The notes under the pieces: generated by a model
The model's database searches: none
Seen by the model: only the letters and a program-made list of their open reading frames with translations
What the model was told of the DNA's origin: nothing
Source of the DNA: Planctomycetaceae bacterium
GTDB lineage: Bacteria; Planctomycetota; Planctomycetia; Pirellulales; PALSA-1355
Assembly (NCBI GenBank): GCA_003153375.1
Contig: PLYM01000137.1
Location: 1 to 32,973 of the forward strand
DNA: 32,973 nt
Direction: 5' to 3'
Shown here: piece by piece, positions 6,851 to 23,321 of the stretch
How positions within the stretch are numbered: position 1 is the first letter of the stretch
Layout of the letters: each line of letters begins with the position of its first letter
Made by a program: the position numbers and the translations under genes

Positions 6851-9800
6851 ATGGAACTTTTTCCGCTCCTGCTTGGCGCGACCTGCGTGCTGGCCGCCGT
6901 GGCCGTGGTGGGCCATGGAATCTGGGTGGGCATTTCCTGGGTCGTCGGTGGCGGCGCGCCAGGACGGAAGGGACAGAGCTGCCCGCGCTGTGGCGTGAAG
7001 CTGGAGCGCGATCAATGCGGCGTGTGCGAATGGCCGGTGCCGCCCGACGCGGCGCGGCGGCGGCCGTTGGCCGCGCTGGGCGCGTTGGAAAAGCAGGCGG
7101 CCGATTTCGAGCGGCTTGGCATTCTTGAGCCGGCTGCCCGTCGGCAGTTTGCGCAGTTGATTGAGGGTGAGCGGGCGCGTCTGGTTGCCGCGCGCGAGGC
7201 GCTTCTCGCCGCCAAAGCCGCGCCCGGTGCTGCTGCTGAAGTGCTGCCTGTCGAGCCGATGGCGAAGGCCAGCGCGCCGGTTGCTCCGCCAATCATCGAG
7301 CCGCGCCCCGTTGCTCCGCCGCCGCATGTTGCTTCGCCAGCGGCCGAAGTGTCGCAGGGAGTCGACCTGCCCGCGCAGGAGGTGGCCGCCGGCGCAACGC
7401 TTGTCGAACGAGCCAGACAGTTCGAGGCGGCGCGTGCGGCCGCGGCGGATCAGCCCAGGCATTCGCCCGCCGCCCCGGTGGCGCCGTTGCCGCCGGCCCG
7501 GTCGTGGCTCGACGTGCTGGCGGCGTTCATGGAAGAGCGCAACATGCGCTGGGGCGAGATGGTGGGTGGGCTGTTGATCGTCTGCTGCTCGATCGCGCTG
7601 GTGGTCAGCTTCTGGTCGGCAATTGCCGAACGCCCCTGGCTCAAGTTTTTCTTGTTCAATGGCGTCACGGCCGGTCTATTCGGCGTCGGTTTCTACAGCG
7701 AACATCGTTGGCGGCTGCGGACGACCAGCCAGGGCCTGCAGATCATCGGCAGCTTGCTGGTGCCGTTGAACTTCTTGGCCATCGCCGCGTTTTCCTCCGC
7801 GGCGGCGGCCAACTCGCCGCTGACGCTGGTGGGCGAGGTTTTTTCGATCGGCCTGTTTGCGTCGCTGGTTTTTTTCGCCGGCCGGATCCTCGTCGACCAC
7901 GGCCCCGGCTGGCTGGTGGCCGGCCTGTTGATTCCCTCGATCGCCCAGTTGCTGGTGCGCAGGTTTGTCGAACCCTCGACGGGCGTAACGGTGTTGGCGC
8001 TGTTGTCCGCGTTGCCGCTGGCCTGCTATCTCGCGGTCAACGGCGAGTGGATTCGCAGGGCCGCGGGCGTGGGTGTGCTGAGCGAAGAGGAAATCAACTC
8101 GCTGCTGAAGTTTTTTGGCCTGACGTCGTTCGCCGTCGTGCTGCCCTTAGCGCTGTTGCTGTTCAAGACCGGCGAACCGCTCGAGACCCTGCGCGAGTTG
8201 CCGTTCGTGGCGGGCGTGCTGGGCCTGGTGCCGCTGGGCGTGGGGTTGACACTGTGGCAAAAACTGGCCGGACGTGGATTGCCCGCGCTGCGCACCGCCG
8301 GCACCAGCATCGCGGTGCTGGGCGCGATGATCTGTGTCAGCGGTTTGGTGCTGGGCTGGCCCGAGCCGCGGGCGATGCTGCCGGCGGCGCTGGTTGAGTT
8401 CGCCGTGTTCACGTTCGTCGCCTGGTGGTTCGCCATTCCCTGGGCCCATCTGCTGGCCGGGGCCTGCCTGGCCTGGGCCTATCTGCTGGGCGTGAATTTG
8501 TTTGATGTTGAGATTGCTTGGTCCGGTGACGGGCCGCTGGCGTTGGCGCGGGCCTTGGTATCGGATGGCAGCGGCACGTTGTTGGCGCCGCTGGTTACGC
8601 TCTATGGCGCGGCCGCATTCGTGGCCCAGTCACGTCGGCGCCCCAGCGCTCTGCCGCTGGGCTGCGTGGCCGGCGCGCTGGCCGCGGCGAGCGTGGCGCT
8701 GGTGAGTTGGTTTGGCTTTGGTCTCGAAGGCGACCCCGCCGGCGCCGGCTGGGTTTATTTGGTGTATGCCGCCGGCGCGCTGACGCTGGCCGCGCGCAGC
8801 CGGCGGTTGGCGATTCCTTGGATCGGCGCGGCGTTGCTGCTGGCCGGTGTCTTGCAGGAAGTCTGGTTTCACTATGGCGAGATTTGGCATTTGGAGCATG
8901 CCGAGATCACGGCCGCGCTCGTGGCTTGCTCGCTGGCCGCGGCGATCGCGATCGTCGTCCGCACGACCCGCGCGGCGGTCGACGACAGTCCGTTGGAAGC
9001 CGTGCTGTGGACCGCGACGTTCTTTGCCTCGCTGGTGGCGGCCGCGTGGCTCGCGATCACCGTGCCGGAGCAGACCGCGGCCTTCGCGGCCGGACATTGG
9101 TTTTGGTTGGCGGTGCTGTGGCTGCTCACCGGCCTGGCGATCGAATGGGCCGGCGTATGGACGTTGTTCCAGGTCGCGCTCAGCCTGGCGGCGGTCTTTG
9201 CCGTGGTGGCTCGTTTGGAAGTGCAGCCGTGGTTTCGGGAGTCGCCGCGTCCCTGGCTCGATCCGTGGACGCTGGAAGCTGTCGGCATCGCGCTGGCCGG
9301 GTTGAACATCGCGTGGGCCGTGGTGCGAATCGCCGTGGTTCGCGTTCGCGTGGATCGCCCAGCGTCGGCTCTTCGCGCGCATGTCGGGCGGCTCTGCGCT
9401 TCGCCGTGGCTAGCCGTAGATCGAATCACAAGCGCTTGGGTCGTTGCGCTGCTGGTTGCGATTGCCAGCCATGCGGCGCTGCCAGGCGTTCGGCAAGAGT
9501 TGTCGCCGGCACCGGTGGCGAACCTGGCCGCGAACGGCACGCCCACGCCGACAGGGCGCGTGGTGCCGCCGATCGAGGACTTCCAGTGGCTCGACGTGCC
9601 GCACGATCACGGCAGCGGCTGGGGCGGCTGGACCTTGTGGGCCGGCGTCCTGGTGCTCGTGGCCGTGACGACGCGCGAACGAAACTCCGCGACTTGGGCT
9701 TCGTGTTTGCTGGTCGTCGTGGCAGCCGTCTGTCCGTTGCTGGCCAGCCGCTGGGAAGGGGACGTTGCCGTGGCCTCGGCGCTGCGCTGGTTGTCGACCG

Positions 9801-12800
9801 GTTTTCTCGTGCTCGGATCGGCGGTGGTGTGGTGGCGTGTCTGGGCGCGGCGGCGCGGCGCGGGAGGCGAATGGCGACCGACGGACGCGAGCGTGCAGTT
9901 CGAGGCGTCGGCGCGGGCGTTGGTGATCTTCTTGGGATTGTTTCCGCCGCTGGCGATTCTGCTGGCGATCAGCGCCGGGGCGCTGGAGCGTGCGGGTCAG
10001 ACGGCTTTGCCGTGGCACGAGTTGATTCCGCTAGCGATCGTCGCCAGTATCGCAGCGCTCATCGCGGCGGCGCTGTTGCGCGCCCCGGTCGGCGTGCTAG
10101 GGGGTCATCAAGCGACTCGGCGATCGACGTGGCCGGCGGCGGCTTCGGCGCTGGTGATCGTGCTGGTCATGGCGCCGCTCGTGGCCACGATCGTCTATCA
10201 GATCGGCACGGCGTTGGTGCGGAGTCCGATCTTGGGTCCGAATGCCGATTCGATTTTCGCGCGGATGGGATTGGCGACGTCCTATGCCGGTCCGTTGGTG
10301 ATCACGGCCCTGGCATTGGTGGGCTATGCGATTCGCGAGCGGTCGGGCAACTGGGGGTTGGCGGCCGGGCTGACGCTCAACCTCGCCGCGACGGCCGCTT
10401 ACTTGCTGGCCATCTCACATGCCGGGCTGCGTTTCGACGCGGCTCAATGGATTCGTCTGGCGCAATTGAACACGGCCGTGGCTGCCGGCTATGCGATTGC
10501 GTGGCTGCCGATGCTGGTGCGCGTGCGGCGCCGCGGCGATGCGACCGAGTCGCTGGCTGGCGACTTCGCGCTGCAAACGCAACTCGCGCTGGCGCCGGCC
10601 CTGATGGGCCTGGCACTCGGCTGGGCCTGGTGCGACCTGGTCTGGGATCCGGAAAAGCTGCAACGCACGTCGCCGATGAACGCGGAACTGGCCGACCTGT
10701 GGGGCTGGGGCAGTTTTGCGTTGGCTTGCACCAGCGTTTGGGCCGCGCTGTGGGTCGCCGGACGCCGCGTGAGCATGTTGGGCACCAGCATCTTCCTGGT
10801 CGCGGTGGCCATCTTTGCCGCCGTGATTGTGGCCCGTTGGGATTCGGGCGCATGGGAATCGTATCACACACTGGTCATCGGCCATGGTGCCATCGGCACC
10901 GTGCTGCTCGGCCTGGCCTGGCGCGAGCGCCGCACGCAGGGCCGCATTGCAGAGAGTTCTTCGGATAGCGCACCTCTCGGTGAAGCCATCGCCGGTGGTG
11001 CCTCGGCGGGCTGGGTGGTGTTGCAAGGCGCGATCGTGGCCGGGCTGGCCCTGCGCGAACTGTGGGATGATTATTGGTGGCCGATCGGCGAGCTGGCTTT
11101 TCTCGGCATCCTGTTGGCGCCGGCCACGGCCTGGGTCTTTCAGCGCAGGCGCTACCTGTACATCGCCGCGGTGCTCATCAACGGCGCCGGACTGGCGCTG
11201 GCCGATGCCTACGGCCGACTGCGGACCCTGGACGAATTCGTCTACTGGAACACCATTCTGTTGGCAGCGCCGACGGTGCCCTGGCTGCTGATCGAAGTGT
11301 TCGCGATCCGACCGCGACGCTTTGACCTCGACTCGCAGGTCGTGCCGTTTCATCGCCTGGCCGCGCGCGGGGCGTTGGCGATTTTGTTGCTGGCCGTGAG
11401 CGTCGGGCTGTTCGATGATGCCACGCGCTGGGGTTGGACGACCACGAGCTCCGCGCTGCCCTGGATTGCGCTGGCCGCGGCCGGAGTGGCGGCGCTGGCC
11501 TGTCTGTGGGATGTGGGGTCACGTTCCGCGATGGCAGGACTCTATGTTTGGGGATTGATTGCCTGCGGCATGCTGCTCGACGTTTTTGACCTGGAGCCGA
11601 GACAATTATTATGGCTCGGCGCGGCGGTGGCGGCGGCCTATGGCCTGGCCACGAGTTATCTGTGGAGCCTGCGCGACGGTCTGTGGCCGCTGGCCCAGCG
11701 GCTGGGCATTCCGCGCGGACAGCAGGTGGAGCTGGCGAGTGCCTTGTGGCTCGTGCCGTGCAATCTGTTGATCGCGGGGGCCGTGGTCGCGATGACGCTG
11801 GCGGTCGAGTTGACCGAGCACGAGTTGCCGATGCGCTTGCTGGCGTCACAGGCTACGCTGGCACAGGTGATCAGCGTGGCCCTGTTGGCGCGGGGCGATC
11901 GCCGCGGCACGTTGCAGTTGATCGCGCTCGTGCTAGGTTCCGTCGGCGCCGTGATGTTTGCCTGGTCGTGGCTCGGCGTCGGCACCACACTGACGATGCT
12001 GCACGCCCTGGTGGTGTTGGCCGCGACCCAGGCGGCCGTGGCCGTGTTCTATGGCTTCGGGCTCGGCAAGTTGTTGCGCGACAGCAGCGACTGGCTCGAA
12101 CCGGCGCGGCGGCTGACGCCTTGGTTGGCCGCCGTCAGTGGCGTGGCCCTCGTGGCGATCCTGGGCGTCGAGGTGCGCGAGTTCGTCGGCCATCGCGACG
12201 TGGTCATGGCCTGGCCCGCGATTTTGGTGGTGGCGCTGACGCTGTTGGGGCTGTCGCTCGCGGCGCTGGCGGCGGCGGTATTGCCGGGGCGCGATCCGCT
12301 GGGATTGAGCGAGCGCGGGCGGCAGGTCTATGTCTATGGCGCCGAGATCGTGTTGGCGCTGTTGTTCCTGCACATCCGTTTGACGATGCCGTGGCTGTTC
12401 GGCGGACTGCTCAGCGAGTATTGGCCGCTGGTCGTGATGGCGATCGCGTTTGTCGGCGTCGGCTTCGGCGAGCTTTGTCGGCGGCGCAAACAAGAGGTGT
12501 TGGCCGAGCCGATTCAGAACACGGGCGCCCTGTTGCCGGTGTTGCCGGTGCTGGGCTTTTGGGCCGGCGGCACGCGCGTCGACTATTCGCTGTTGCTGCT
12601 GGCCGTGGGCGTACTCTATACGGGGCTGTCGATCGCGCGGCGGTCGTTCGGTTTCGGCGTGCTGGCGGCGCTGGCGGCCAACGGCGGGTTGTGGTACTTC
12701 CTCAGCCGGCAGGATGGGCTGGGACTGCTGGCGCATCCGCAGGTCTGGCTGATTCCGCCGGCGCTGTGTCTGTTGGCGGCGGCCTATTTGAATCGGCAAC

Positions 12801-13180
12801 AACTGGGCGAAGCGCGGATGACCGCCATTCGCTATTTCGCCTCGATGACGATCTATCTGTCTTCGACCGGCGACATCTTCATGAACGGCGTGGCCCAGGC
12901 GCCCTATTTGCCGCTGGTGCTGGCCGTGCTCTCGGTCGCGGGCATTTTGGCGGGGATGCTGTTGCGCGTGCGGGCGTTCTTGTTCCTGGGCACGGGCTTC
13001 CTGGTGCTCTCGCTGTTCACCATCATCTGGCACGCGGCGGTCGATCTGAACCAGACCTGGATCCTGTGGGTCAGCGGCATCGTGCTGGGGTTGTTGATCC
13101 TGGCGCTGTTCGCGATGTTCGAAAAAAAGCGGCAGGACGTGCTGGAAATGGTAGAAAAGATCAAGCATTGGGAAGGCTAA
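6851..13180 (+). CDS. Giant polytopic membrane protein with N-terminal zinc ribbon, function unknown
   Basis: 2109 residues, starting at ATG with GGAAGG four bases upstream. Residues 3-31 form a first membrane helix. Residues 44-59 are a zinc ribbon (CPRC, eight residues, CGVC). Residues 75-120 are a charged helix. About 120-215 is a Pro/Ala linker. From 218 on the chain is dominated by membrane helices (several dozen) almost to the C-terminus, which ends in a short charged helix. The first block (FMEERNMRWGEMVGG, then ERPWLKFFLFNG and GFYSEHRWRL) resembles the DUF2157/DUF2339 type of predicted membrane protein, but the chain is far longer than either. No transporter, glycosyltransferase or protease motif was recognised. 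The DinB-fold gene follows after 58 bases and may be cotranscribed. Function unknown; not obviously a fusion of known enzymes. Confidence 0.85.
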   Translation: MELFPLLLGATCVLAAVAVVGHGIWVGISWVVGGGAPGRKGQSCPRCGVKLERDQCGVCEWPVPPDAARRRPLAALGALEKQAADFERLGILEPAARRQFAQLIEGERARLVAAREALLAAKAAPGAAAEVLPVEPMAKASAPVAPPIIEPRPVAPPPHVASPAAEVSQGVDLPAQEVAAGATLVERARQFEAARAAAADQPRHSPAAPVAPLPPARSWLDVLAAFMEERNMRWGEMVGGLLIVCCSIALVVSFWSAIAERPWLKFFLFNGVTAGLFGVGFYSEHRWRLRTTSQGLQIIGSLLVPLNFLAIAAFSSAAAANSPLTLVGEVFSIGLFASLVFFAGRILVDHGPGWLVAGLLIPSIAQLLVRRFVEPSTGVTVLALLSALPLACYLAVNGEWIRRAAGVGVLSEEEINSLLKFFGLTSFAVVLPLALLLFKTGEPLETLRELPFVAGVLGLVPLGVGLTLWQKLAGRGLPALRTAGTSIAVLGAMICVSGLVLGWPEPRAMLPAALVEFAVFTFVAWWFAIPWAHLLAGACLAWAYLLGVNLFDVEIAWSGDGPLALARALVSDGSGTLLAPLVTLYGAAAFVAQSRRRPSALPLGCVAGALAAASVALVSWFGFGLEGDPAGAGWVYLVYAAGALTLAARSRRLAIPWIGAALLLAGVLQEVWFHYGEIWHLEHAEITAALVACSLAAAIAIVVRTTRAAVDDSPLEAVLWTATFFASLVAAAWLAITVPEQTAAFAAGHWFWLAVLWLLTGLAIEWAGVWTLFQVALSLAAVFAVVARLEVQPWFRESPRPWLDPWTLEAVGIALAGLNIAWAVVRIAVVRVRVDRPASALRAHVGRLCASPWLAVDRITSAWVVALLVAIASHAALPGVRQELSPAPVANLAANGTPTPTGRVVPPIEDFQWLDVPHDHGSGWGGWTLWAGVLVLVAVTTRERNSATWASCLLVVVAAVCPLLASRWEGDVAVASALRWLSTGFLVLGSAVVWWRVWARRRGAGGEWRPTDASVQFEASARALVIFLGLFPPLAILLAISAGALERAGQTALPWHELIPLAIVASIAALIAAALLRAPVGVLGGHQATRRSTWPAAASALVIVLVMAPLVATIVYQIGTALVRSPILGPNADSIFARMGLATSYAGPLVITALALVGYAIRERSGNWGLAAGLTLNLAATAAYLLAISHAGLRFDAAQWIRLAQLNTAVAAGYAIAWLPMLVRVRRRGDATESLAGDFALQTQLALAPALMGLALGWAWCDLVWDPEKLQRTSPMNAELADLWGWGSFALACTSVWAALWVAGRRVSMLGTSIFLVAVAIFAAVIVARWDSGAWESYHTLVIGHGAIGTVLLGLAWRERRTQGRIAESSSDSAPLGEAIAGGASAGWVVLQGAIVAGLALRELWDDYWWPIGELAFLGILLAPATAWVFQRRRYLYIAAVLINGAGLALADAYGRLRTLDEFVYWNTILLAAPTVPWLLIEVFAIRPRRFDLDSQVVPFHRLAARGALAILLLAVSVGLFDDATRWGWTTTSSALPWIALAAAGVAALACLWDVGSRSAMAGLYVWGLIACGMLLDVFDLEPRQLLWLGAAVAAAYGLATSYLWSLRDGLWPLAQRLGIPRGQQVELASALWLVPCNLLIAGAVVAMTLAVELTEHELPMRLLASQATLAQVISVALLARGDRRGTLQLIALVLGSVGAVMFAWSWLGVGTTLTMLHALVVLAATQAAVAVFYGFGLGKLLRDSSDWLEPARRLTPWLAAVSGVALVAILGVEVREFVGHRDVVMAWPAILVVALTLLGLSLAALAAAVLPGRDPLGLSERGRQVYVYGAEIVLALLFLHIRLTMPWLFGGLLSEYWPLVVMAIAFVGVGFGELCRRRKQEVLAEPIQNTGALLPVLPVLGFWAGGTRVDYSLLLLAVGVLYTGLSIARRSFGFGVLAALAANGGLWYFLSRQDGLGLLAHPQVWLIPPALCLLAAAYLNRQQLGEARMTAIRYFASMTIYLSSTGDIFMNGVAQAPYLPLVLAVLSVAGILAGMLLRVRAFLFLGTGFLVLSLFTIIWHAAVDLNQTWILWVSGIVLGLLILALFAMFEKKRQDVLEMVEKIKHWEG

Positions 13181-13803: not shown

Positions 13804-14475
13804 CTACGGCAGCGGCTTGACCATCACGTTGCGATAGTAGGTCGTGCTCTTGGGATCGTGGGCCTGGAAGGCGAATGTTCCCTTGCTGATCTTTTCCATC
13901 ACGCCTTTTTCGATTTGCTCGGGCGTGGCGTGGGCGTCATCGGCTTCGGTATATTCGGCGATCACGTTGCCGTTGACCTTGGTGGTGACGGTGTTGCCAT
14001 TGACGATCACTTCCTCGACGAACCACTCGTTGTCCTTGGCCGGCGCTTTGAAGTTCTTCTTGATGTGATAGATGCTGCCGGTCTTGACCGGGTCGAGGTG
14101 CGTGTTGTTCACCTGGGCCTCGAAACCGGTGCTGGGAAAGCCCGACGGTTGAAAGCGGACGTGAAAGTAAATGCCCGAGTTGCTGCCGCGGGTGGTCATC
14201 ACCTCGGTGCGAAAGATGAAGTTCTTGAACTCGGGCGGATGCGATTCGTCGTCACCCATGTAGAACAAGTGGCTGCGCGGTCCGGCGGCCACGATCTTGC
14301 CGTCCTCGACTTTCCACTGCTCGGGATGCTCGCTGGCTTTCCAGCCTTTGAGCGATTGTCCGTCGAAGAGACTGATCCAGCCGTCCTCGCCGGCCTTGGG
14401 GGCCGCGTCATCGGCCACGCACGTCGCGGCCAGGGGTAACAGCAGGATTGCCAGCAGCCAACACAACTTCTTCAT
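13804..14475 (-). CDS. Secreted DUF1080 (3-keto-disaccharide hydrolase-type) protein
   Basis: 223 residues. The ATG at 14473-14475 is chosen because GGAG lies seven bases upstream; a TTG two codons earlier is unlikely. Residues 1-20 form a signal peptide, possibly cleaved after CVA. The rest is one DUF1080 domain: WISLFDGQSLKGWK at 33-46, WKVEDGKIVA, then EFKNFIFRTEV, GSNSGIYFHVRF, a FEAQVNN strand, TGSIYHIK, NEWFVEEVIVNGN and a final YYRNVMVKPL strand. The fold is a concanavalin-like beta sandwich. Some members hydrolyse 3-keto-glycosides, while most are uncharacterised and very common in Planctomycetes. It lies 170 bases downstream of the anti-sigma gene in the same direction. Substrate unknown. 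Confidence 0.88.
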   Translation of the reverse strand: MKKLCWLLAILLLPLAATCVADDAAPKAGEDGWISLFDGQSLKGWKASEHPEQWKVEDGKIVAAGPRSHLFYMGDDESHPPEFKNFIFRTEVMTTRGSNSGIYFHVRFQPSGFPSTGFEAQVNNTHLDPVKTGSIYHIKKNFKAPAKDNEWFVEEVIVNGNTVTTKVNGNVIAEYTEADDAHATPEQIEKGVMEKISKGTFAFQAHDPKSTTYYRNVMVKPLP

Positions 14476-14645
14476 GTTCAAACTCCGAAAATATCGAATG
14501 GGATTTCCAGTTGAAAACTCACGGGTCTACGCGGGAAGTTGGCTCCCCGGCGTCGAGAGATAGTTTCGCTAGCCGCGCGGCCGCTGTAAAGGAGCGCGTT
14601 TTTCGGAGAATATCCCCGGGCGACGAGGCAGCAAGGCCCTCGGCG

Positions 14646-15359
14646 CTAGGGAATCGAGGCGGCCGCCTTGTGGCAGACGTGGCAGTGCTGAGCCACCTGG
14701 GCCGTGGCAGCGCTGGGCACGACGTCCGAATGCGCGGTGTGGCACTCGGTGCAGCAGTGATTCAGTTGCAAGTCGGCGTCGGCCAACAGCCGGTCGCCGC
14801 GGGGGGCATTGCGGGGACCGTTGCTGGGGCGATGGTTCGTGCAGGCCGCGGGGCGAACCGCCAACTCGGCCTTTTCGGCCGGCGTCAGCTGCAAGACAAA
14901 GTCGTTGGCCGGCGGCGGCAGCGAGGCCGCGGCGCCTGGCGGCCGGGCCGGCGGCGCGGCTCCGCCGTCAAAGGCCCCGCGCGAGTTGATCAACAGTCCC
15001 AACGTGACTCCCAGAGCCAACACGGCCGTGATCTGCCAAGCGCTCAGAGCCGACCAGTGCGGATTCGCCGCGGGTGGGTTCCAGCCCTCGGGCATCGACA
15101 ACAGCGGTTCGACCTTGGGCACGAACGAGACGACCGGCGGAGTGCGATCGGTGGCCACGGCCGACCAATAGCCGGGCAGGTCGCGGCTCTCTTCGGGACC
15201 GATGGCCTCTTGAAACAACTCGATTGCCGGCCGCAGCGCCTCGGCCAGGCGGTGGCATTCGGCACACTCGCCGAGATGCGCCTCGACGTCGGCATCGCAG
15301 GCCGAGCCGGTCGGAAACGGTCCGCGGGTCAAGATGTCAAAAACCTGATCGCAATTCAT
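14646..15359 (-). CDS. Anti-sigma factor with periplasmic CXXCH (heme c-type) tail
   Basis: 237 residues. Residues 1-50 are an anti-sigma zinc domain with Cys3 and H28-x3-C32-x2-C35. Residues about 105-125 are the only membrane helix. The segment after it (about 127-237) should be periplasmic. It starts Ala/Pro-rich, and its last 70 residues contain CTNH at 173-176, C203-T-E-C206-H207 with His210 close by, and C226-H-V-C229-H230. Two CXXCH motifs with nearby His residues resemble a small multiheme cytochrome. The ATG overlaps the stop of the sigma gene as ATGA, so translation is coupled, as expected for a sigma/anti-sigma pair. The inferred role is to hold the sigma factor and release it in response to a periplasmic redox or heme signal. 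Heme attachment is not proven; the motifs could instead bind a metal. Confidence 0.8.
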   Translation of the reverse strand: MNCDQVFDILTRGPFPTGSACDADVEAHLGECAECHRLAEALRPAIELFQEAIGPEESRDLPGYWSAVATDRTPPVVSFVPKVEPLLSMPEGWNPPAANPHWSALSAWQITAVLALGVTLGLLINSRGAFDGGAAPPARPPGAAASLPPPANDFVLQLTPAEKAELAVRPAACTNHRPSNGPRNAPRGDRLLADADLQLNHCCTECHTAHSDVVPSAATAQVAQHCHVCHKAAASIP

Positions 15360-15991
15360 TCGTCACGCTCCCGCTCCGCGCCGTCGCGTGCCGATTCTTT
15401 CGAACCGGCCGACTGGAGCAACTCGGCCAACCGCATCAAACCCCAACGCACTCGATTCTTCGCCGTGTTCAGGCTGCACTCCATCGCCTCGGCGATTTCC
15501 TGAAATTTCAAGCCGCCGAAAAACCGCAGCCGCAACGCGTCGGCTTGCACGACGCTCAGTTCGAGCAGCAGCAACTCCAACTGCTCGCCGCGCTCCTTGG
15601 CCAACAGATTCGCCAGCGGCGAACCTTCGCTGCCGACCGCGCCGCTCCCGCCAGCCACCTCGCGCTCGACCGGCCAGGACTCGAGCGGCACGCTGCGCTG
15701 GCGGCGCTGATAATGGTGATGACACTGATTCAGCAGGATGGTCCACAGCCAGGTGCGAAAGTTGAGCCGGGGATCGTAATGGGCGCACCAGCGAAACGCG
15801 GCCAGGAACGTCTCTTGCACCACGTCCTCGGCCCAGTCGTCGCGTCCCAGCCGGCTGCGCGCCACGCGCACCAGCGCCGGTTGATAACGACGCACCAGTT
15901 CGGCGAAGGATTCGGAATCGCCAGCCTGCACGCGCACCAGCAAGGTGGCGTCGGAAGCTTCACTGCGAGGATCGCGCGCTGCGAAGTTCAT
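15356..15991 (-). CDS. ECF-type RNA polymerase sigma factor
   Basis: 211 residues from ATG at 15991. Longer reading of the frame upstream was rejected because it runs into the flavoprotein gene without homology. Region 2 spans about 27-95: SFAELVRRYQPALVRVA, then DDWAEDVVQETFLAAFRW (-10 recognition) and FRTWLWTILLNQ. A linker at 100-130 is followed by region 4 at about 137-192: ELSVVQADALRLRFF, then FQEIAEAMECSLNTAKNRV, a helix-turn-helix for the -35 element. There is no region 3, as in ECF factors. The charged tail ends ERERDE. The stop overlaps the anti-sigma ATG. The flavoprotein gene lies 119 bases upstream on the same strand. The target promoters are unknown. Confidence 0.92.
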   Translation of the reverse strand: MNFAARDPRSEASDATLLVRVQAGDSESFAELVRRYQPALVRVARSRLGRDDWAEDVVQETFLAAFRWCAHYDPRLNFRTWLWTILLNQCHHHYQRRQRSVPLESWPVEREVAGGSGAVGSEGSPLANLLAKERGEQLELLLLELSVVQADALRLRFFGGLKFQEIAEAMECSLNTAKNRVRWGLMRLAELLQSAGSKESARDGAERERDE

Positions 15992-16110
15992 GGCGAAAAG
16001 TTCCGGAATAAGCGGCAATTGCACGCTGTCGAGGTCTATTCTGGTTCGATCAACACCGAGACGCAAGCGCGGATTTGTCGCACCGTCAGCATTTGACGCG
16101 TGTATCAAGC

Positions 16111-18448: not shown

Positions 18449-19900
18449 ATGTCCCTCGTCGAGCGCTTCCTCATCCTGTCGTTCGCGGTTGCGTGTTGGG
18501 CCCCCAGCAGTTGGCTGGCGGCGGCTGAACCGGCCGATCCTAAAACGGCGACCGCCACGGTCAGCTACTTCCGCGACATCCGTCCGATCTTTCAGGCCCA
18601 ATGCCAGGGCTGCCATCAGCCGGCCAAGGCGATGGGCGAGTATGTGATGACCAGCGTCGAGGGGCTGTTCAAGGGTGGCGAAAGCGAGCAGCCGGCCATC
18701 GTGGCGCTCAAACCCGAGGAGAGCCACCTGCTGGCGCAAATCACGCCCAAGGACGGCAAGGCGGCGATGCCCAAGGACAAGGAACCGCTGACCGAAGACC
18801 AGATCAAACGCGTGCGGCAATGGATCGTCGAAGGAGCGAAGGACGATACGCCGATGTCGGTGCGCGGCGTGATCGACATGGAGCATCCGCCGGTCTACGA
18901 GGGTAGCCCCGTGCTGACCGCGCTCGATTTCTCGCCCGACGACACCCTGCTGGCCGTCTCAGGCTATCACGAAACCTTGCTGCACGACGTCGAAGCCGCC
19001 AAGAACGGCGCGCCGAGCCTGGTCGCGCGGCTGGTCGGTCAATCGGAACGGGTCGAATCGATCAGTTTCTCGCCCGACGGCAAGCTGCTGGCCGTGACGG
19101 GCGGCTCGCCCGGACGTTTGGGCGAAGTGCAGGTGTGGGACGTCGCGACGCGTAAGCTCAAGTATTCGCTGCCGGTGACCTACGACACGGTGTATGGCGT
19201 CAGTTGGTCGCCCGATGGGACGAAGATCGCCTTTGGCTGCGCCGACAACACGTTGCGGGCCATCGATGCCGCGACCGGCAAGCAGGTGCTATTCCAGGGC
19301 GCGCACAGCGACTGGGTGCTCGACACCGTGTTCTCGAAAGAGGGCACCTATGTGATCTCGGTGAGCCGCGACCGCTCGATGAAGTTGGTCGAAGTGGCCA
19401 CGCAGCGCTTTGTCGACAACATCACGAGCATTACGCCGGGCGCGCTCAAGGGCGGGCTGGACGCCGTGGCACGGCATCCGAAGAAAGATGAGCTGCTGAT
19501 CGGTGGGGCCGACGGCATTCCGAAGATTTATCAAATGCTGCGCACCAAGCCGCGGCAGATCGGCGATGATTTTAATTTGATCAAGGCCTATGAGGCCGTG
19601 CCGGGTCGCATTTATGACGCCCACTTCAACGGTGACGGCAGCCGCTTCCTGGTGGCCAGCAGTCTTGATGGCACGGGCGAAGCGCGAATATATGAGACCG
19701 AGAGCGGCAAGCTGCTGCACAAGCTCGAAGGCCAGAAGGGCCCGGTCTATGCCGTGGCCTTCAGCACGGGCGGCAAGCTCGTGGCTTCGGCCGGGTTCGA
19801 CGGCCTGGTGCGGCTAAGCGACCCCGAGACGGGCAAGCTGCTGAAAGAGTTTTCGCCGGTGCCCGCGAGCGGTACGAAGGTGGCCGCGACCTCCAAGTAG
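18449..19900 (+). CDS. Exported planctomycete cytochrome domain fused to WD40 repeats
   Basis: 483 residues. A signal peptide ends near residue 25 (LAAAEP). Residues 38-140 are a planctomycete C-type cytochrome domain: SYFRDIRPIFQAQCQGCHQPAK with C52-x2-C55-H56, then EESHLLAQI and MPKDKEPLTEDQI. In that fold a distal Met could be an axial ligand. From about 155 to 475 the chain is a WD40 propeller (repeats with FSPDG, WSPDG, VQVWDVAT and similar). Predicted to be periplasmic. Planctomycetes often place such fusions beside DUF1549/DUF1553 genes, as here (121 bases downstream). The function of these pairs is unknown; redox chemistry on complex polysaccharides is a guess. The ATG has AGGTG five bases upstream. 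Confidence 0.9.
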   Translation: MSLVERFLILSFAVACWAPSSWLAAAEPADPKTATATVSYFRDIRPIFQAQCQGCHQPAKAMGEYVMTSVEGLFKGGESEQPAIVALKPEESHLLAQITPKDGKAAMPKDKEPLTEDQIKRVRQWIVEGAKDDTPMSVRGVIDMEHPPVYEGSPVLTALDFSPDDTLLAVSGYHETLLHDVEAAKNGAPSLVARLVGQSERVESISFSPDGKLLAVTGGSPGRLGEVQVWDVATRKLKYSLPVTYDTVYGVSWSPDGTKIAFGCADNTLRAIDAATGKQVLFQGAHSDWVLDTVFSKEGTYVISVSRDRSMKLVEVATQRFVDNITSITPGALKGGLDAVARHPKKDELLIGGADGIPKIYQMLRTKPRQIGDDFNLIKAYEAVPGRIYDAHFNGDGSRFLVASSLDGTGEARIYETESGKLLHKLEGQKGPVYAVAFSTGGKLVASAGFDGLVRLSDPETGKLLKEFSPVPASGTKVAATSK

Positions 19901-19942
19901 CGAGGTGGCCAAGTAGCACGGTGGGCAAGTAGCGCGAAGCAC
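19895..19942 (+). repeat. Three tandem 16-bp units starting at the stop codon
   Basis: AAGTAGCGAGGTGGCC (19895-19910), AAGTAGCACGGTGGGC (19911-19926) and a decayed third AAGTAGCGCGAAGCAC (19927-19942). The first unit contains the last Lys codon and TAG stop of the WD40 gene, so the gene end itself appears to have been duplicated in tandem. Confidence 0.75.
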
Positions 19943-20021
19943 AATCAACGCGGCAGCGATTTTAAAAACATACATACGACTCACGAAGAATTCAAAGCAA
20001 CGGGACCGAAGGATGTTCGCC

Positions 20022-23000
20022 ATGAAAACGAGTTTCTCGACGATCGGGTGCCTGGCGCTGGCGATGGCGTGGGCCTTGCCGGCCACGGCCAAGGAACAGT
20101 TGCCCGAGGGCGCGAAGGTCGTGGCGTTGGAAGCCACGCCTGCCCAGATCTCGCTAGCCAACAAGTATGCCTACGTGCAGGTGCTGGTCACCGCGCAGTT
20201 GGAAGGCGGCGATCGCGTTGACGTGACGCGCCTGGTTCAAGCGACCGTGGCCAACGACCTGGCCAGCGTCTCGCCGACCGGCGTGGTGCGGCCGAAGACC
20301 GAGGGGGACGGCGAGGTCACGTTTTCGGTGGCCGGTCAGACGGTCAAGGTGCCTCTGAAAGTCGCCGTGCAGACCGGCGATTTCAACACGAGCTTCGTGC
20401 GCGACGTGATGCCGGCCCTGTCGAAGATGGGCTGCAATGCCGGGACCTGCCATGGTTCGCTCAACGGCAAGAACGGTTTCAAATTGTCGCTGCGGGGCTA
20501 TGACGCGCTCTACGATCACCGCGCGCTGACCGACGACATCGCGGCGCGGCGCATTAACCGGGCCGCTCCCGATCAGAGCCTGATGCTGCTCAAGCCCTCG
20601 GGCGTGATTCCGCACGTCGGCGGGGTGCTGACCCAGCCGGGGCAGCCTTATTACGAGCTGGTGCGCAGCTGGATCTCGGGCGGGTTGAAGTTGGATCTCG
20701 ACAGTCCGCGCGTCGAGAAAATCGAGATTTTTCCGAAGAACCCGATCGTGCCCATGCCTGGCATGGTGCAGCAGATGCGCGTGGTGGCTAATTACGCTGA
20801 CGGCACCGTGCGTGACGTGACGCTCGAGGCCTTCATCGACAGCGGCAACACCGAAGTGGCCGAGCCCGACAAGTTGGGATTGGTTTCCGTGGTTCGCCGC
20901 GGCGAGGCCCCGATCCTGGCCCGTTTCGAAGGCGCTTATACGGCCACGACGATCACGGTGATGGGCGATCGCAGCGGTTATGAATGGAAGGAAGCTCCGT
21001 CGAACAACTTCATCGACGATCTGGTCTACAACAAGCTGAAGCGCGTCAAATCGCTGCCCAGCGAACTGTGTACCGATGCCGAGTTCGTGCGCCGCGTGAC
21101 GCTCGACCTGACCGGCCTGCCCCCGACGAGCGACCAGGTGCGAGCCTTCGTAGCCGACGCCCGCGACACCAAGGTCAAACGCGACGAGCTGATCGAGCAA
21201 CTGATCGGCAACGGCGAATACATCGAGCTGTGGACCAACAAGTGGGCCGATCTGTTGCAGGTGAACCGCAAATTCCTGGGCGAGCAGGGTTCGTTCGCGC
21301 TGCGGGGCTGGATCAAGCAGGCCGTATCGGCCAACATGCCCTACGACAAGTTCGTCTACACGATCCTGACCGCCAGCGGCTCGACGGTCGAAAATCCGCC
21401 GGCGGCCTATTACAAGATTCTGCGCACGCCGGAAGACACCATGGAGAACACGACCCAGCTCTTCCTGGGCGTGCGCTTCAATTGCAATCATTGCCACGAC
21501 CATCCCTTCGAGCGCTGGACGCAAGGACAGTACTATCACCTGGCGGCTTACTTCGCCCAGGTCGGCCGCAAGGAAGACCCGTTGAGCGAAGGCCGCAAGC
21601 TGGGCGGCAGCGACGTCGAAGGCGGCAAGCCGTTGGTCGAGGACATTTATGACTCCGGCAGCGGCGAAGTGGTCGACGGCGGCAGCGGCAAGCCGGCCAC
21701 GCCCGGTTTTCCCTATCAACACAGCGACCTGGCCACGGGTCCTGCCACGCGCCGCGAGCAACTGGCGCATTGGATCGCCTCGAAGGACAATCAGTACTTC
21801 GCCAAGAGCTATGTGAATCGTCTCTGGGGCTATCTGTTCGGACGCGGCATCATCGACCCGATCGACGACATCCGCGCCGGCAATCCCCCCTCGAATCCCG
21901 AGCTGCTGGAGAAGCTGACCCAGGAATTCGTCGGCAGCAATTTCGACATGCAGCACATGCTGCGCACGATTTGCAAATCGCGCAGTTACCAAGCGTCGAT
22001 CGTCACGAATAAGTGGAACCAGGACGACGACATTAATTTCTCGCACGCGATTGCCCGCCGCTTGCCGGCCGAGGTGCTGTATGACGCGATTCAACGAGCC
22101 ATGGGCTCGGTCAGCCAGTTGCCGGGCGTGCCGGCCGGTTTTCGCGCGGCGCAGTTGCCCGACGTGGGGTTGACGTTGCCCAGTGGTTTCTTCGAAGTCT
22201 TCGGGCGCCCGGCCCGCGAAAGCTCGTGCGAGTGCGAGCGTTCCAGCGGCATGATGCTGGGACCCGTGATGACGCTGGTCAACGGTCCGACGATTGCCGA
22301 GGCGATTGCCGATCCGGCCAACAGCCTGACCAAACTCGTGGCGGAGCAAGCCGACGACGCCAAAGTGGTCGACGAACTGTTCGTGCGCATTCTGGCGCGC
22401 GCCGCGACGCAGGGTGAAATCGAGGCCGGCGTGCAAGCCTTGCACGCCAGCGGCGCGGAGGTGGCCAAGCTGCAAGAGGAGCTGGCCAAGCACGAAACCG
22501 AGCTGGCCGCCAAGCAATCGGCTTGGGAAGCCACGTTGGCTCCGGCCACCTGGACCGTGCTCGAGCCGCGCGAAATGACCGCCAGCATGGGCGCCACGTT
22601 TGCCAAGCAGCCCGATCAGTCGCTGCTGGTCGAAGGCGCCAATGGTCGCGGCACGTTCACCGTCAACCTGACCACCGAGTTGTCCAACGTGACGGCGATT
22701 CGGTTGGAAGTTCTGGCCGATCCCATGCTGCCCTCCAGTGGGCCGGGCCGTGCCGGCAACGGCAACCTGACGCTCTCGGAGTTCCGCGCCACGGCGGCCG
22801 CGACGTCGGATCCCACCAAGACGACCCCCTTGTCGTTCGCGGGGGCCACGGCCGACTTCTCGCAGGACGGTTTCCCGGTCACGGGCGCCATCGACGGCAA
22901 CCCGCAAACGGCCTGGGCCATCAGTCCGCAAGTCGGTAAGAACCATGTGGCCACGTTCGAAATCAAGGAAGACTTGAACTTTGCGGGAGGCACGGCGCTG

Positions 23001-23321
23001 TCGATCGTGCTCGATCACCAGTACGACGAGCAGCACACGATCGGCCGTTTTCGCGTCTCGGTCACCGGTGCCAAGCGGCCCCTCGTGCCGACCACGGTGC
23101 CCGCCAAGGTGCTGGAGATCGTGGCCATCGCCCCCGAGCAGCGCAGCGACGCGCAAAAGGCCGAGTTGGCGAACTTCTATCGTTCGCGCGATGCACTGTG
23201 GGTCCGCCTGAATACGGCGCTCGCCACCACGGTCGAGCAGGCCAAGAACCAACGCCTGACCGGTGCTCAGGATCTGTCCTGGGCCTTGATCAACAGCCCG
23301 GCGTTTTTGTTCAATCGGTAA
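20022..23321 (+). CDS. DUF1549/DUF1553 planctomycete cytochrome-type surface protein
   Basis: 1099 residues. The ATG at 20022 is chosen because GAAGGA ends eight bases upstream; an ATG at 20013 overlaps that site. The signal peptide ends ATA-KE near 23. Residues 35-115 resemble a bacterial Ig-like domain. A cytochrome-like segment follows with C138-x4-C143-H144 (CNAGTCHG), then GFKLSLRGYD. DUF1549 covers about 325-520 and includes VRRVTLDLTGLPPTS and C488-N-H-C491-H492. DUF1553 starts near 577 (LAHWIASKDN) and ends with the conserved INSPAFLFNR. It is interrupted at about 806-1023 by a coiled coil and a discoidin-like beta domain. The family is almost confined to Planctomycetes and Verrucomicrobia and its reaction is unknown. 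No DUF1501 partner follows. Confidence 0.92.
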   Translation: MKTSFSTIGCLALAMAWALPATAKEQLPEGAKVVALEATPAQISLANKYAYVQVLVTAQLEGGDRVDVTRLVQATVANDLASVSPTGVVRPKTEGDGEVTFSVAGQTVKVPLKVAVQTGDFNTSFVRDVMPALSKMGCNAGTCHGSLNGKNGFKLSLRGYDALYDHRALTDDIAARRINRAAPDQSLMLLKPSGVIPHVGGVLTQPGQPYYELVRSWISGGLKLDLDSPRVEKIEIFPKNPIVPMPGMVQQMRVVANYADGTVRDVTLEAFIDSGNTEVAEPDKLGLVSVVRRGEAPILARFEGAYTATTITVMGDRSGYEWKEAPSNNFIDDLVYNKLKRVKSLPSELCTDAEFVRRVTLDLTGLPPTSDQVRAFVADARDTKVKRDELIEQLIGNGEYIELWTNKWADLLQVNRKFLGEQGSFALRGWIKQAVSANMPYDKFVYTILTASGSTVENPPAAYYKILRTPEDTMENTTQLFLGVRFNCNHCHDHPFERWTQGQYYHLAAYFAQVGRKEDPLSEGRKLGGSDVEGGKPLVEDIYDSGSGEVVDGGSGKPATPGFPYQHSDLATGPATRREQLAHWIASKDNQYFAKSYVNRLWGYLFGRGIIDPIDDIRAGNPPSNPELLEKLTQEFVGSNFDMQHMLRTICKSRSYQASIVTNKWNQDDDINFSHAIARRLPAEVLYDAIQRAMGSVSQLPGVPAGFRAAQLPDVGLTLPSGFFEVFGRPARESSCECERSSGMMLGPVMTLVNGPTIAEAIADPANSLTKLVAEQADDAKVVDELFVRILARAATQGEIEAGVQALHASGAEVAKLQEELAKHETELAAKQSAWEATLAPATWTVLEPREMTASMGATFAKQPDQSLLVEGANGRGTFTVNLTTELSNVTAIRLEVLADPMLPSSGPGRAGNGNLTLSEFRATAAATSDPTKTTPLSFAGATADFSQDGFPVTGAIDGNPQTAWAISPQVGKNHVATFEIKEDLNFAGGTALSIVLDHQYDEQHTIGRFRVSVTGAKRPLVPTTVPAKVLEIVAIAPEQRSDAQKAELANFYRSRDALWVRLNTALATTVEQAKNQRLTGAQDLSWALINSPAFLFNR

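Follow-up and report, generated by a model that had tools for sequence, protein, structure and literature searches.

A putative membrane anti-sigma factor with a predicted heme c tail, paired with an ECF sigma factor in Planctomycetia

Introduction

ECF sigma factors are a major bacterial route by which signals from beyond the membrane reach transcription, and the class I (zinc) anti-sigma factors are a familiar group. To our knowledge, the signal sensed by most anti-sigma factors is unknown. Regulation in Planctomycetes is poorly understood as well. In class I proteins of the RsrA, ChrR and RsiW types, an HxxxCxxC domain is present and the gene immediately follows that of an ECF sigma factor, an arrangement shared by the protein described here, whose extracytoplasmic part differs from theirs in being a conserved CXXCH tail. 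In an ECF classification (PMC7406223), about 65% of class I anti-sigma factors have a membrane helix and conserved extra domains are reported per group; its main text makes no mention of a heme or cytochrome domain.

Sensors that carry heme c are known among chemoreceptors, kinases and GGDEF/EAL enzymes (PMC12889525, PMC8396549), and Tll0287 offers a case of His/Cys axial ligation of heme c in a sensor-type domain (PMC12889525). DcrA, GSU0582/GSU0935, Tll0287 and sCache_heme proteins share with the predicted arrangement a covalent heme c in the extracytoplasmic part of a signalling protein. However, these Cache/PAS-like sensors are folded domains, whereas the present tail spans about 70-110 residues without such a fold and is attached to an anti-sigma factor. 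Heme-linked control of an ECF sigma factor through a membrane anti-sigma factor is also found in HasS/HasI and HxuR/HxuI, in which, as reviews describe them, an outer-membrane receptor senses heme and none is carried by the anti-sigma factor (PMC11442138, PMC12670364). Finally, Paired_CXXCH_1 and MtrC-type multiheme fragments resemble the tail in having two CXXCH motifs with a short linker, and give weak profile matches to it. Unlike such doubled-CXXCH cytochromes, the tail has no conserved further His for bis-His ligation and has extra cysteines instead. The original prediction knew of no characterised anti-sigma factor with a heme c tail, and we likewise found no example in the open-access literature searched, in which the ECF classification papers are covered in part.

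Here we analyse such a gene in a 32,973-nucleotide stretch from a Planctomycetaceae bacterium (GCA_003153375.1, contig PLYM01000137.1, positions 1 to 32,973 of the forward strand), hereafter the window. On our best reading, its product would represent a new sensory variant of the class I (zinc) anti-sigma factors, with a predicted heme c tail.

Results

Anatomy of the gene and its surroundings

The putative anti-sigma factor gene lies on the minus strand (14646..15359) and encodes 237 aa from an ATG start. This ATG overlaps the stop codon of an ECF sigma gene in the ATGA arrangement that had been described (15356..15991, minus strand; start ATG giving MNFAARD...), and the sigma ORF matches Sigma70_r2 (5e-18) and Sigma70_r4_2 (2e-10). 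The plan predicted for the anti-sigma protein is a cytoplasmic zinc-type domain, one membrane helix and an extracytoplasmic tail with two CXXCH motifs. The single helix is present, and the HxxxCxxC motif at residues 28-35, C173 and the CXXCH motifs at C203 and C226 were all found at the residues given in the original prediction. The zinc motif H28-x3-C32-x2-C35 of the anti-sigma domain (15255..15278, minus strand) lies in an N-terminal region that AlphaFold predicts to be helical (pLDDT 84-95), and the transmembrane helix at about residues 104-125 (14985..15050, minus strand) is indicated by family hydropathy and by an AlphaFold helix at 101-127 with a core pLDDT of about 92. Further along the same strand, the extra tail cysteine C173 (14841..14843), kept in most family members, is a candidate distal ligand of one heme. 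The first heme c motif, C203-TEC-H207, is immediately preceded by C202 (together 14739..14756, minus strand), which is present in 21 of 23 full-length homologues, and the second is C226-HVC-H230 (14670..14684, minus strand). The string C32-AEC-H36 in the zinc motif region also reads as CXXCH, which we consider coincidental because residue 36 is usually Arg in homologues.

The window protein has no match to Pfam zf-HC2 (PF13490) and scores 15.3 bits against a cut-off of 100 with the NCBIfam antisigma model; the orthologs in genomes G004 and G459 reach the zf-HC2 cut-off, one of them only with neighbours in frame.

Downstream of the anti-sigma gene is a gene for a 3-keto-disaccharide hydrolase of the DUF1080 type (13804..14481, minus strand), which also adjoins the pair in some close relatives from a few families only and is not a general part of the locus. 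Other neighbours depend on the lineage (a two-component system, TPR and PPC-domain proteins, Omp85, DUF1549/DUF1553), and the idea of a fixed set of controlled genes adjoining the pair was dropped, since none is general. A PhoR/PhoB-type two-component system stands directly upstream of the pair in genus g21 of family f19 (loci L174, L175, L179 and L182). Close relatives share a recurring TTGCGT-N17-AGAAT-like element ahead of the sigma gene (window 15991-16110, minus strand). An ECF autoregulatory promoter was considered and rejected, as the upstream regions of several lineages read TTGC-N16/17-AAT, nearer to a housekeeping promoter. Elsewhere in the window, a PSCyt1 and WD40 protein and a DUF1549/DUF1553 protein (18449-23321, plus strand) form a Planctomycete cytochrome-type module that is also found near the sigma/anti-sigma pair in G001 and G003. 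A protein of 2109 aa with many apparent membrane helices and N-terminal CxxC pairs (6851-13180, plus strand) has no Pfam match at E<=0.001.

The CXXCH tail accompanies the sigma factor

A search of 97 related genomes returned anti-sigma homologues in 41. The zinc motif and both CXXCH motifs are invariant in all 23 full-length homologues, which come from 11 families and share 30-59% identity with the window protein; all six motif residues (Cys, Cys and His of each motif) are kept, and other tail positions vary. The combination proposed for a family search, a zinc domain with a CXXCH tail, lies next to an ECF sigma gene in most members. The same conservation was observed in named genomes, the nearest named relatives being metagenome-assembled genomes of Planctomycetia/Pirellulales. 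Residue shuffling of the window tail gives a chance of about 0.0005 for at least two CXXCH motifs; the conservation of the motifs across homologues is far stronger evidence than this figure.

A second search used an alignment of 26 partner sigma factors as the query and was meant to avoid selecting proteins by their tail. The genomes searched were the 97 relatives plus 297 from the class; at an ortholog threshold of E<=1e-45, a sigma ortholog was returned for 27 of the former and 63 of the latter, with exactly one per positive genome. Gene contexts were read at 65 sigma loci, window included. At 60 of these, the product of the adjoining downstream gene has a membrane helix and, past it, CXXCH, with two motifs in 37 cases and one in 23; some of these 60 partners had first been found via the anti-sigma protein and many via the sigma factor alone. 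No CXXC lacking the following His was seen after the membrane helix in any of the 60 partner proteins. No recognisable anti-sigma ORF was found downstream at the five remaining loci (L141, L142, L143, L144 and L168), whose sigma factors cluster together in the tree (support 84/75). Loss of the CXXCH motifs from homologues with intact sigma pairing, an outcome that would speak against the original prediction, was not encountered among the 60 partners, every one of which keeps CXXCH past the helix. The original description of the tail as diheme fits the Pirellulales-type members and fails for most Planctomycetales members, which have one motif.

As a control, we inspected 19 HxxxCxxC proteins of the zf-HC2 type that were readable in six of the sigma-positive genomes. 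CXXCH followed HxxxCxxC in two of the 19, both of which were the orthologs themselves, and in none of the 17 others.

Cysteine counts and folds weigh heme against metal

Over the 60 partner proteins, K+R amounts to 4.65 before the helix and 1.87 after it. By the positive-inside rule, this net positive charge before the helix predicts the tail to be outside, in agreement with the extracytoplasmic placement first suggested. Extra tail cysteines, i.e., those located after the helix and outside CXXCH, are as many as the CXXCH motifs in 53 of the 60 proteins (34 two/two and 19 one/one), a count inflated by relatedness. Three Planctomycetales members have a second CXXCH together with a second extra Cys, and their sigma factors branch at two distinct positions in the tree (G676 in one, G542 and G639 in the other). 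This rule suggests one distal Cys ligand per putative heme, with Tll0287 as a parallel. We regard Cys ligation as an inference because the relatedness-inflated counts would look no different if each motif formed a metal site. Nor would it be universal, since the extra Cys is missing from the G028 ortholog, which has two CXXCH motifs, and from that of G485, whose sole cysteines are those of a single CVTCH. An intramolecular C173-C202 disulfide was rejected as the rule, given that one-motif members mostly carry one extra tail Cys.

The one-to-one ratio would equally provide a C3H metal site, and the tail could accordingly be a heme-free metal or thiol sensor, in which C plus CxxCH coordinates Zn or Cu or engages in disulfides, and in which the sigma factor is released upon oxidation or when the metal is lost. 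The AlphaFold model of the window tail, computed without heme, is compatible with this alternative in that it contains short helices only, at low confidence (pLDDT about 37-64), and no recognisable cytochrome fold. However, a His follows every CXXC in the 60 proteins without exception, the G485 tail offers two cysteines only and that of G028 no extra one, and AlphaFold models the CXXCH of a one-motif ortholog as part of a helix at the C-terminus (pLDDT about 74) and not as a knuckle. Given the invariant His and the ortholog with two cysteines, a zinc ribbon was judged less likely than heme. The operon link to ResB/CcsA described below also speaks against the metal or thiol sensor, which we consider very unlikely. 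Heme c is favoured over zinc in the tail, and heme attachment is predicted, because the His after CXXC is invariant, G485 has no other Cys and, in one lineage, genes for cytochrome c assembly share an operon with the pair.

Two paired-CXXCH models stay below their cut-offs (PF09699, 15.3 versus 20.6 bits; TIGR01905, 13.8 versus 25.2 bits), and a PDB sequence search matches the tail weakly to multiheme chains such as MtrC. A PDB fold search gave no meaningful match, and Pfam DUF3365 (sCache_heme) was not matched in the window protein at E<=1.

Relatives that lack the sigma factor

Tailed homologues with both CXXCH motifs also occur in five genomes in which no sigma ortholog passes E<=1e-45 (G013, locus L193; G020, L189; G030, L192; G045, L190; G072, L191), and the protein may therefore have, or have had, another role. 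In G020, the tailed gene sits between the response regulator and TPR genes that flank the sigma/anti-sigma pair in family f19, and the sigma gene seems to have dropped out between conserved neighbours. Such orphans would suit a tail that carries electrons, as a small module, or stores heme, on a protein whose anti-sigma domain is vestigial or serves a different function, with no signalling from heme to the sigma factor. Against this stand the sigma and tailed-protein genes themselves, which usually overlap or lie a few bases apart wherever the sigma factor is present, the tailed proteins being the only downstream partners found. The zinc domain is, moreover, as well conserved as the heme motifs within Pirellulales. 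Taken together, a carrier or store uncoupled from the sigma factor appears most improbable.

Tail-less homologues of about 135-150 aa, consisting of the zinc domain and a terminal membrane helix, were found at loci L194-L202, L012, L013, L024-L028, L037, L038, L043 and L051. They are confined to genomes without a detected sigma ortholog, so the zinc domain may have a second life without the sigma factor. Most of those examined, in family f7 and some others, adjoin a peroxiredoxin gene of the AhpC-TSA/Bcp type.

An apparent operon with cytochrome c assembly genes in one family

The genome that contains the window has one fused ResB-CcsA gene, and System II assembly is thus available to it. A search of 65 sigma-positive genomes detected ResB in 49. 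In both sigma-bearing genomes of family f119, which belong to two genera, the sigma gene, the CXXCH protein gene, ResB and a CcsA-type gene follow one another on one strand, with gaps before ResB and before the CcsA-type gene of 60 and 28 nt in G478 and of 123 and 20 nt in G485. The ResB of this apparent operon is the only one detected in each of the two genomes, and the f119 anti-sigma proteins have lost the zinc motif while retaining CXXCH.

This arrangement brings up the main rival explanation, in which the protein is a sentinel of cytochrome c assembly and its CXXCH tail a dedicated substrate that reports on heme ligation. An unloaded tail, unfolded and with reduced thiols, would be cut, and the sigma factor, once freed, would raise genes for heme c assembly or oxidative damage; a loaded tail would be stable and silent. 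The f119 operon, as well as the persistence of CXXCH there after the loss of the zinc motif, would fit such a role. On the other hand, the contexts read in other lineages showed neither ResB nor CcsA next to the pair, the ResB genes located there lie elsewhere in the genome, and the linkage is for this reason a clue and not a rule. The correspondence of one Cys per motif also suggests a built heme site as opposed to a bare substrate. We hold the sentinel to be rather unlikely, although it shares most of its anatomy with our preferred explanation and could be combined with it.

Discussion

The explanation we prefer, and think likely, is that the window encodes a heme c-bearing membrane anti-sigma factor in which the state or loading of the heme would control release of the sigma factor. 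It draws on the sigma/anti-sigma operon, the predicted topology, the invariant CXXCH motifs, the rule of one Cys per motif and the presence of assembly genes, all of them read from sequence. The pairing of CXXCH tail and sigma factor is kept across Planctomycetia, and the family therefore probably constitutes a previously undescribed heme-based switch of gene expression.

In the proposed mechanism, the N-terminal zinc-type domain would hold the ECF sigma factor of the adjoining upstream gene in the cytoplasm, and the tail would carry two covalent c-type hemes attached by System II (ResB/CcsA). For each heme, the CXXCH His would probably act as one ligand and C173 or C202 as the distal one. Candidate triggers are a redox change, in either direction, that costs the heme its Cys ligand, a bound gas such as NO, and failure of heme loading. 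Any of these may alter the fold or stability of the tail, a change that would be passed through the membrane helix, and the sigma factor would then be freed, most likely by regulated proteolysis. This is the release route of other membrane anti-sigma factors.

Several findings count against this explanation, namely the CXXCH models that stay below cut-off, the low-confidence tail, the absence of extra cysteines in G028 and G485, the five tailed proteins without a sigma partner and gene neighbours that differ between lineages. Only tentatively do we extend it to a more specific proposal: a class-wide anti-sigma family in which a covalent extracytoplasmic heme c with His/Cys ligation, one distal Cys to each heme, would link an ECF sigma factor directly to the redox, gas or loading state of the cellular heme c pool, and of which one lineage shares an operon with its heme c synthetase.

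For a whole class of Planctomycetes, a conserved heme c tail names both a concrete cofactor and a shortlist of signals, comprising redox state, NO or other small ligands, and heme supply. The ResB/CcsA operon makes the link to cytochrome c assembly directly testable. If the preferred explanation is true, anti-sigma factors would join the signalling outputs driven by heme c.
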